Source of the DNA: Verrucomicrobiales bacterium
Lineage (GTDB): Bacteria > Verrucomicrobiota > Verrucomicrobiia > Limisphaerales > UBA1100
DNA: 64,000 nucleotides
Direction: 5' to 3'
Assembly: GCA_005809105.1 (NCBI GenBank)
Contig: SYLI01000066.1
Coordinates: 1-64,000 of the forward strand
This document shows positions 59,450-62,281 of the stretch, piece by piece. Below the pieces are notes generated by a model. The model worked only from the letters and a program-made list of their open reading frames with translations, searched no databases and had not been told where the DNA came from. Both the position numbers and the translations under genes were made by a program. Numbering within the stretch: position 1 is the first letter of the stretch; each line of letters opens with the position of its first letter.

Positions 59450-60856
59450 ATGAAAAAGCCATCGCTCCTGGTCATCTTTCTTACGGTGGTCATCGACCTC
59501 ATCGGCTTTGGCATCGTGCTGCCGGTGCTGCCACAGGTGGGACTGGATCTCCACGCTGCGGGATGGCAGACCGGTCTCATCGTGGCCTCGTTCTCGCTCA
59601 TGCAGTTTCTCTTCGCGCCGGCATGGGGTCGCTTGAGCGACCGAATCGGTCGGCGTCCGGTGCTCTTGGTGAGCACGGCCGGGGCCGTCATTTCATACGC
59701 GCTCTTCGCGCTGGCCATCACGCGGCAGAGTCTGGGGCTGCTGCTCATCTCTCGTCTTTTTGCCGGCATTTGCGGTGCCAATCTCTCGGTCGCCAGCGCG
59801 TACATCGCTGACATCTCCAAGCCGGAGGAGCGATCCCGGCGCATGGGACTGGTCGGGATGGCCTTTGGCATCGGCTTCATTCTGGGGCCCTTGCTGGGTG
59901 CGCTAAGCGCGCACTGGTGGGGGGCCGCGGCGCCAGGCTGGGTGGCCTCCGGCATCTGCGGCGCCAACCTCATCCTGGCGTATTTCATCTTGGGAGAGAG
60001 CCACCGGCCCGAGTCGGCACAGGCCGAGCCGCGCCCGCGTGTGGATCAGTGGCTGCACGTATTGCGCCGGCCGCAACTGCGCGTGCTGGTGGGCCTGTTC
60101 TTCTTCGCGACGTTTTGTTTCACCTGTTTTGAGTCGGGCTTTGTCGTTCTCTTCGTCAACAACCCAAAAATGCAACGCGTTGAGAGGGTTGCAGTGCCTC
60201 ATGGAGCCACCGTGATATGGCAGGCCAACAATGGCACCGAGGTGAAGCAAGGCGACGTGTTGGGGCATGCAGTGGCAGGGACGCAGCCCTCGCCGATTCG
60301 CGCGCCGCGATCGGGCCGGGTGGAGGCTACGGCTGACGGGGGGCGCGCCATCAACCACACCATGACAACGGCCTACTATCTCATGGCGTTTTGCGGTCTG
60401 GTGGGTGCGGTGGTGCAGGGAGGGATGATCGGCCGGTTGGTCAAGCTCTTCGGTGAAAAGCGGCTCATCGGTCTGGGCCTGCTGCTCCTGGGGACAAGCC
60501 TGTTTCTGCTGCCGCAGCTCACGCATATCGGCTGGCTCATGGCGGGCTTGGCACTCTTCGCCTTGGCGTCGGGAGTCTACCGCGCGCCCACTTTCGGTTT
60601 GATTTCGCTCAATGCCTCCCCGCGCGAGCAGGGCGAAGTGCTGGGCGTCACCCAGAGCGTGGGAAGTCTGGCGCGCATCGTGGGTCCGGTGTTCGTGCTG
60701 GGCCTCTTCGACATCCGGCCCGAACTGCCCTATTTCATCTGTGCGTGCATCGCGGCGCTGGCGGGCTGGGTGGCTCTGGTCAAGTTGAACCAGCCGCGGA
60801 TTCCGGCGGCCCAGGCCGCTGGTGCCGTTCCCGCAGCGGGCAAGGCGGCCGGTTAA
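59450..60856 (+). CDS. MFS transporter (TetA/DHA1-like) with an inserted biotinyl/lipoyl-like domain between TM7 and TM8
   Basis: VVIDLIGFGIVLPVLPQ; FAPAWGRLSDRIGRRPVLL; ISRLFAGICGANLSVASAYIADIS. Insert NNPKMQRVERVAVPHGATVIWQANNGTEVKQGDVLGHAVAGTQPSPIRAPRSGRVEATADGGRAINHT at about 60158..60361. Confidence 0.88.
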   Translation: MKKPSLLVIFLTVVIDLIGFGIVLPVLPQVGLDLHAAGWQTGLIVASFSLMQFLFAPAWGRLSDRIGRRPVLLVSTAGAVISYALFALAITRQSLGLLLISRLFAGICGANLSVASAYIADISKPEERSRRMGLVGMAFGIGFILGPLLGALSAHWWGAAAPGWVASGICGANLILAYFILGESHRPESAQAEPRPRVDQWLHVLRRPQLRVLVGLFFFATFCFTCFESGFVVLFVNNPKMQRVERVAVPHGATVIWQANNGTEVKQGDVLGHAVAGTQPSPIRAPRSGRVEATADGGRAINHTMTTAYYLMAFCGLVGAVVQGGMIGRLVKLFGEKRLIGLGLLLLGTSLFLLPQLTHIGWLMAGLALFALASGVYRAPTFGLISLNASPREQGEVLGVTQSVGSLARIVGPVFVLGLFDIRPELPYFICACIAALAGWVALVKLNQPRIPAAQAAGAVPAAGKAAG

Positions 60857-60866
60857 GCGCTTTGAC

Positions 60867-61934
60867 ATGGCGCGCATCCGAAACGTCGTATTTGATTGGT
60901 CGGGCACTCTGGTGGACGATCTGCCGGCCGTGTGGCGCGCCACCAACTTCACGCTCACCCAGGCGGGAAGAGACGAGATGTCGCTTGATGAATTCCGCGC
61001 CGGGTTCAGCCTGCCCTTTGATGCCTTTTACGAACGCGTCACCCCCGGCGTGCCTCTCTCCCAACTCGAGGCATGGTACCAGCAGCGCTTCGCCGGCGAG
61101 CAGGCCTCCATCGAGCCTTTGCCGCATGCGCGCGCCTTCTTTGATTGGTGTGCCGCGCGCGGATTGCGGCGCCTGCTCTTGAGCTCCATCCATCCCGATC
61201 ATTATCGCGAACAGTCCGGGCGCATCCCCTTCGCCTTTGATCGCGAGTACGTGCGCGTGATGGATAAGCGCCTTCGGCTGGGCTCCATCCTGTCGGAGAA
61301 TGGAATGGTGCCGGCCGAGACGATGTACATTGGCGACATGCAGCACGATGTTGATGCCGCCCGCGTTGCCGGCGCGGTGTCCTGTGCCGTGCTGACGGGT
61401 TACAACACGCTCTCGCAGCTGCGCGAGAGCAAGCCGGACCTGGTGGTGGAGCATTTGGGTGAGCTTCGCGCACTGCTCGAGCGCCAGGCCTTGGAATGGC
61501 CGGCGCCCAATGGCGTCGCGCGCAGTCCGGTGGTCACGGTGGGTGCCCTCATCTTTGATGACTTAGGCCGGGCATTGCTGGTGCGCACGCGAAAGTGGTC
61601 GGAGCTCTGGGGCATTCCTGGAGGGAAAATCCAATGGGGCGAAAGTGCCGAGGCTGCGCTGCGCCGGGAGTTGCTGGAGGAGACCGGGCTGGATGTGAAT
61701 GACATCCGCTTTGTGATGGCGCAGGACTGTGTGGCCTCGCCCGAGTTTTATAGGGAGGAGCATTTTGTGCTCCTTAATTACACCTGCCATTGCCAAGGCA
61801 CGCCCGAGGTGCGCCTCAACGACGAGGCCCAGCAGTATCGATGGCTGCGCCCGCAAGAGGCTCTCTCTCTGCCTCTCAACACTCCCACGCGTGTGCTGGT
61901 CGATGCTTTGCTGGACGGGAAGGGGGCCCGGTGA
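60867..61934 (+). CDS. HAD-superfamily hydrolase fused to a Nudix hydrolase domain
   Basis: HAD part: VVFDWSGTLVDD, LLLSSIHPDH, MYIGDMQHDVDAARVAG. Nudix part: GGKIQWGESAEAALRRELLEETGL (Nudix box GX5EX7REUXEEXGU). Confidence 0.9.
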   Translation: MARIRNVVFDWSGTLVDDLPAVWRATNFTLTQAGRDEMSLDEFRAGFSLPFDAFYERVTPGVPLSQLEAWYQQRFAGEQASIEPLPHARAFFDWCAARGLRRLLLSSIHPDHYREQSGRIPFAFDREYVRVMDKRLRLGSILSENGMVPAETMYIGDMQHDVDAARVAGAVSCAVLTGYNTLSQLRESKPDLVVEHLGELRALLERQALEWPAPNGVARSPVVTVGALIFDDLGRALLVRTRKWSELWGIPGGKIQWGESAEAALRRELLEETGLDVNDIRFVMAQDCVASPEFYREEHFVLLNYTCHCQGTPEVRLNDEAQQYRWLRPQEALSLPLNTPTRVLVDALLDGKGAR

Positions 61935-62281
61935 AGGGAACCATTGCCATCGTTGATCTCGAAGTGGCGTGCCGCATTGGCGTGCCCGATAGCGAGCGAA
62001 GCACGCCCCAGCGTCTGATGATGACTTTGGAACTGGAATTGGACTTGAGTCGCGCTGCGACCACCGACGACATCGCGCACACTGTGGACTACGACGCTCT
62101 GGCGAAGGATCTGCGGGTTTACTGCGCCGCGGGCGAATGGCGCCTTCTTGAGAAACTGGCGGCAGACATCGTGGCCCGCGTCGTGTCGGCGCACCGGCCT
62201 CTGCGCGCGTCCTTGGAAATTAAAAAATTTGTCCTTCCGCAGACGCGGCACGTGTCCGTGCGCGTGGAATACACCGGCTAG
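61931..62281 (+). CDS. folB: Dihydroneopterin aldolase FolB (GTG start)
   Basis: IVDLEVACRIGVPDSERSTPQRLMMTLELELDLSRAATTDDIAHTVDYDALAKDLR...LEKLAADIV...RASLEIKKFVLPQTRHVSVRVE. GTGA overlap with the upstream gene. Confidence 0.9.
   Translation: MKGTIAIVDLEVACRIGVPDSERSTPQRLMMTLELELDLSRAATTDDIAHTVDYDALAKDLRVYCAAGEWRLLEKLAADIVARVVSAHRPLRASLEIKKFVLPQTRHVSVRVEYTG

Follow-up and report, generated by a model that had tools for sequence, protein, structure and literature searches.

Organization of the locus

The window, by which we mean the whole stretch of 64,000 nucleotides analysed here (contig SYLI01000066.1 of the Verrucomicrobiales assembly GCA_005809105.1), carries an open reading frame that joins an N-terminal HAD phosphatase domain to a C-terminal Nudix hydrolase domain, and directly behind it folB, the gene for dihydroneopterin aldolase (Table 1). 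A preliminary description, made from the letters alone, had claimed a single HAD-Nudix frame with an intact Nudix box, a motif I reading DWSGT, and a stop codon overlapping the start of folB. All of this was borne out: the frame is open from end to end, the Pfam domains and the box sequence are in place, the motif reads as claimed, and the two genes share four bases (GTGA) at the correct coordinates. This overlap appears compatible with a translational coupling of the fusion and folB. Moreover, a gene for an MFS transporter ends 10 bases 5' of the fusion and, since this gap is so short, the three genes may form one operon. The transporter (59450-60856 of the window) presents an odd insert at about residues 235-300 (RVAVPHGATVIWQANNGTEVKQGDVLGHAVAG...), which resembles a lipoyl/biotinyl-type carrier or barrel-sandwich segment and gave only a weak RPOC_hybrid match in Pfam.

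Table 1. Positions of the genes, domains and motifs at the HAD-Nudix/folB locus (window coordinates)
Feature	Coordinates	Strand	Details
HAD-Nudix fusion protein	60867..61934	+	355 aa plus stop; ATG start, TGA stop
HAD phosphatase domain, C1-cap type	60876..61481	+	residues 4-205; Pfam PF13419/PF13242, profile span
HAD motif I, DWSGT	60894..60908	+	nucleophile Asp10, Ser12 at +2; from ortholog alignment
HAD motif III lysine, Lys134	61266..61268	+	invariant in 110/110 orthologs and in 39/39 of a second set
HAD motif IV, GDMxHD	61332..61349	+	metal-binding acids; invariant in the 110 orthologs and the second set
Nudix hydrolase domain	61530..61895	+	residues 222-343; PF00293, 94.7 bits (cut-off 21.1), E 5.9e-27
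Nudix box, GX5EX7REUXEEXGU	61623..61691	+	residues 253-275; GGKIQWGESAEAALRRELLEETGL, intact
GTGA overlap, fusion stop/folB start	61931..61934	+	TGA 61932-61934, GTG 61931-61933
folB, dihydroneopterin aldolase	61931..62281	+	116 aa, GTG start; PF02152, 80.4 bits

An assembly artefact as the source of the fusion was considered and rejected. Indeed, the second genome sampled from the genus has this fusion too, with 76% identity, and many genomes of the order, sampled independently, carry it with 50-61% identity.

A HAD domain with serine in place of the second aspartate

The HAD_2 profile (PF13419) matches residues 7-175 of the fusion with 38.6 bits against a cut-off of 23.8, and the motifs of the HAD superfamily, i.e., Asp10, the serine of motif II, Lys134, and GDMxHD, are all conserved. 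In HAD phosphatases, a second aspartate, acting as general acid/base, is usual at position +2 of motif I; the family studied here has Ser or Cys instead. In the 110 orthologs, the D, W, G, and T of DWSGT are invariant, with Ser at +2 in 108 of them and Cys in the other 2. Serine at +2 is, as judged from this alignment, a stable family trait and not a sign of decay.

The preliminary description had likened DWSGT to the DWAGT motif of phosphonatase. PhnX phosphonatase does share with the window HAD the fold and the missing second aspartate, but it has Ala where the window HAD has Ser, and the window HAD has no conserved cap lysine. Among the aligned orthologs, the sole conserved lysine of the domain is that of motif III and none lies in the cap, so that the proposed likeness fails and phosphonatase-type chemistry, which needs a cap lysine for its Schiff base, was rejected. 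The PhnX-like model scores 29.7 bits against a cut-off of 218.9. LHPP, a mammalian HAD phosphatase, is active with Ser at +2 of motif I and also splits pyrophosphate (PMC11277029). It belongs to the NagD clade and acts on other substrates; by analogy, it nevertheless is a better precedent than phosphonatase and, since it is active with the same residue, Ser at +2 is compatible with phosphatase activity.

The closest HAD models and folds are those of the bacterial phosphoglycolate phosphatase Gph/PGP (COG0546). The nearest solved structures are 2ah5 and putative phosphoglycolate phosphatases, and a fold search returned predicted phosphoglycolate phosphatases and a pyrophosphatase as nearest, at less than 22% identity, with the phosphonatase 1rql also matched. 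As far as models go, the fold search confirms only a HAD of the phosphoglycolate-phosphatase type. The window HAD differs from Gph/PGP in that it stays far under the cut-off of the phosphoglycolate phosphatase equivalog (NCBIfam; 53.1 bits against 225), has Ser for the second aspartate, and is linked to folB. AlphaFold2, run with two sequences, gave a fair model of the HAD half and failed on the Nudix half (mean pLDDT 53.9); the relative placement of the two active sites in this model was left out of the argument.

A conserved Nudix domain

The PF00293 match, together with the key Gly, Glu, and Arg of the Nudix box, which are invariant in 81 fused domains, places the C-terminal half in the Nudix superfamily. 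The fused domains share 51-65% identity with that of the window and, beyond the box, many residues are invariant or nearly so (QD, EF, HF, LN.E, LN.PTR), which suggests one conserved substrate. The closest solved structure is that of the nucleoside triphosphatase NudI (55.9 bits); NudB (2o1c) reaches only 32.5 bits, at about rank 50, far below NudI, and orthology with NudB is therefore not supported. Nudix substrates are not readable from sequence similarity, so that dihydroneopterin triphosphate (DHNTP) is proposed as substrate purely from the gene context. The absence of a standalone NudB/FolQ, which the preliminary description had suggested checking, cannot be shown in this genome, in which a Pfam search finds four other Nudix proteins.

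The domain nevertheless resembles the DHNTP pyrophosphatases FolQ of Lactococcus lactis and NudB of E. coli in its Nudix fold and box, in the step proposed for it, and in its folate gene neighborhood: FolQ of L. lactis lies in a folKEPQC cluster (PMC1971073), and here folB is directly downstream. It differs from them in that it is not a NudB ortholog by sequence, is fused to a HAD domain, and has a putative DHNTP activity.

The HAD domain is the constant partner of folB

The HAD is widespread in the class. An ortholog was found in 130 of the 189 genomes sampled from it, and in 263 of 292 genomes of the order, there mostly as full-length HAD-Nudix proteins with 50-61% identity. The best HAD profile scores exceed 250 bits inside the class and fall to about 100 bits outside, the level of ordinary phosphoglycolate-phosphatase relatives; because of this sharp drop, the HAD can be regarded as a well-bounded subgroup.

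Each of the 20 genomes of the family to which the window belongs has a HAD match, and the Nudix half is restricted to the window's genus (2 genomes), the HAD being alone elsewhere. On a larger scale, the HAD tree, a quick tree with a midpoint root and a long branch for L119, requires roughly twelve switches between the HAD-Nudix form and the HAD alone. We considered that the Nudix domain might have moved to another gene in the family members that lack it, and rejected this among the Nudix proteins found, which score at most 38 bits with the fused-domain profile against more than 175 for true members. Clustering of the family Nudix proteins from the Pfam search that carry a recognizable box, the most divergent ones being left out, gave three groups common to most genera and the fused group confined to the window's genus; the genera without the fused Nudix added no group of their own. 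Since the Nudix half was repeatedly lost while HAD-folB was usually kept, and since no replacement group is seen in the family, the Nudix step is dispensable or replaceable. From these distributions, the HAD, and not the Nudix domain, is the constant partner of FolB.

The preliminary description had asked whether relatives keep folB beside this architecture, and the linkage is indeed conserved across the order and the class. In the family, folB lies directly behind the HAD or HAD-Nudix gene wherever the contig reaches far enough. In 28 further loci of the order searched with tblastn, FolB is downstream in 24, nearly always close behind, and profile searches confirm a downstream folB widely in the class. 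When the positions of the HAD and FolB matches were compared in the 105 class genomes listing both, 78 (79 including G354, with a larger overlap) had folB immediately behind the HAD in the same orientation, with gaps of -11 to 559 bases, mostly below 100. The exceptions cluster in one family, f68 (12 genomes), where the HAD is apart from folB; a few others are scattered.

Moreover, HAD and FolB form one open frame in four sequenced cases (L112, L116, L117, L119), and further genomes have HAD and FolB matches with identical open-frame lengths. The four sequenced fusions fall in two separate places of the HAD tree, so that two changes are needed, the starred branches forcing two. That the HAD was joined twice to the same partner weighs more as evidence than adjacency does, and the link between the HAD and folB is not due to chance. 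A precedent for such fusions is found in Parachlamydia UWE25, for which a FolQ-FolB fused protein is listed (PMC1971073, Table 2), since the DHNTP pyrophosphatase is there joined to FolB. No HAD is reported in Parachlamydia, whereas here the HAD is the domain joined to FolB or encoded beside it.

FolB and the folate pathway

The FolB of the window scores 69.9 bits with TIGR00525, just under the cut-off of 72.15; its PF02152 match and its catalytic-type Glu22, Tyr54, and Lys99, a Glu, Tyr, and Lys that are invariant in 96 relatives, make it a member of the FolB family. FolE (PF01227) is absent from the 20 genomes of the family. A lack of pathway substrate was nonetheless rejected, the window's genome encoding FolE2 (PF02649). 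Since FolB, FolK, and FolP accompany it, the cell should both produce DHNTP and consume dihydroneopterin. FolE2 was found in both family genomes checked for it (the window's genome and G003), and FolE and FolE2 hardly ever occur together across the class sample.

FolB and the HAD also tend to be absent together. FolB gave no match in 16 of the 189 genomes of the class. The HAD is missing as well from 14 of these 16, and the two that have it are drafts with a completeness of 80 and 87% (Fisher p 1.8e-6, uncorrected for kinship). Two genomes of a genus with the HAD-FolB fusion (G377 and G404) have neither FolB nor HAD though 98-100% complete, and keep FolE2; folate synthesis has possibly been lost there. 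On the other hand, 45 of the 189 genomes have FolB without the HAD and, in several of these (L265, L266, L268, and similar), folB is often part of a folP-folB-folK cluster, going by gene names read by eye. The class thus holds at least two folB contexts, and other lineages would solve the phosphatase step differently.

A candidate for the phosphatase preceding FolB

The path from FolE2 to FolB needs one pyrophosphatase and one phosphatase, and the removal of the last phosphate is assigned to "a non-specific phosphatase" (PMC1971073). We consider it probable, reasoning from sequence and gene context, that the HAD-Nudix protein serves the pterin branch of folate synthesis as a two-step hydrolase, converting DHNTP to dihydroneopterin for FolB. 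The Nudix domain would convert the DHNTP made by FolE2 to dihydroneopterin monophosphate and pyrophosphate, and the HAD domain would then take off the last phosphate. This second step would use Asp10 as nucleophile, a phospho-aspartate intermediate, and Mg2+ held by the motif IV acids, with Ser at +2 standing in place of the usual general acid aspartate; dihydroneopterin would then pass to FolB, the product of the overlapping gene. We infer both substrates, the order of the steps, their coupling, and any channelling. We are more confident of the HAD as a dedicated monophosphate phosphatase than of the role given to the Nudix domain, and the predicted enzyme is a strong candidate for the missing phosphatase before FolB in vitamin B9 synthesis. 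Of the module proposed in the preliminary description, the feeding of FolB agrees with the conserved linkage, the HAD-FolB fusions, and the presence of FolE2, FolB, FolK, and FolP; its bifunctionality is not essential, as the repeated loss of the Nudix half indicates. We also counted against the pathway reading the closeness of the Nudix domain to NudI rather than NudB, the separation of HAD and folB in f68, the folB lineages without HAD, and the four other Nudix proteins.

The same losses, and the sister genera without a replacement Nudix, are what one would expect if the HAD alone took DHNTP to dihydroneopterin, or if another, shared Nudix did the first step, the fused Nudix catalyzing a side reaction such as nucleotide house-cleaning. 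LHPP, with its Ser at +2 and its hydrolysis of pyrophosphate (PMC11277029), and the place of NudI as closest solved Nudix point the same way. The strong conservation of the fused Nudix, within the box and beyond, goes against this explanation, as does the fact that similarity does not reveal Nudix substrates; we hold it to be unlikely. It is rather improbable, in particular, that the HAD, as a dedicated pterin phosphatase with Ser at +2, performs the whole conversion of DHNTP to dihydroneopterin alone, as pyrophosphatase and phosphatase, with the Nudix as a dispensable accelerator. If so, the repeated Nudix loss would be explained, and the HAD-FolB fusions would be near-complete enzymes from DHNTP to hydroxymethyldihydropterin.

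The linkage and fusion of HAD with FolB would be accounted for equally well if FolB cleaved dihydroneopterin monophosphate directly and the HAD dephosphorylated the by-product glycolaldehyde phosphate instead of a pterin. The nearest relatives of the HAD, putative phosphoglycolate phosphatases, are enzymes for a small C2 phosphate, and a "dihydroneopterin monophosphate aldolase" annotation exists on an archaeal PTPS-family protein (PMC5041015). The window FolB, however, is a normal PF02152 member with the usual catalytic residues, and a FolB preferring the monophosphate was not found in the literature examined; we give this explanation little credence. Finally, that the HAD-Nudix protein acts elsewhere, e.g., in phosphoglycolate or nucleotide clean-up, and stands beside folB by inherited gene order only, as its closeness to phosphoglycolate phosphatase models and the distant HAD of f68 might suggest, is very unlikely, for adjacency is kept over many families and this would leave unexplained the HAD-FolB fusion in two separate tree places and why so few genomes that lack FolB have the HAD.

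After decades of work on folate synthesis, the dephosphorylation just before FolB continues to be attributed to an unnamed non-specific phosphatase (PMC1971073). In the open-access literature that we searched, we found neither a phosphatase assigned to dihydroneopterin monophosphate nor a report of a HAD-FolB fusion. Here, gene order, overlap, and fusion all connect folB with one HAD subgroup, which in our sample occurs in a single class; this narrows the gap in the pathway to one gene and one assay. Indeed, since the HAD-FolB fusion occurs in a genus represented in the class sample by many small closed genomes, a single purified protein suffices for the test. If the proposed pterin phosphatase activity holds, the HAD would become the second natural phosphatase of its superfamily that works with Ser instead of the general acid.

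Family f68 presents some further particularities. In L167 (3276-4184), a 303-aa protein has FolB as its C-terminal part and an N-terminus (MIRKIVSGGQTGADRAALDWA...) that resembles a Rossmann-type carrier domain; the sister genomes have similarly long FolB frames. In L120 and L121, the stand-alone HAD lies near a gene that, by eye only, resembles homocysteine methyltransferase/folate one-carbon enzymes.
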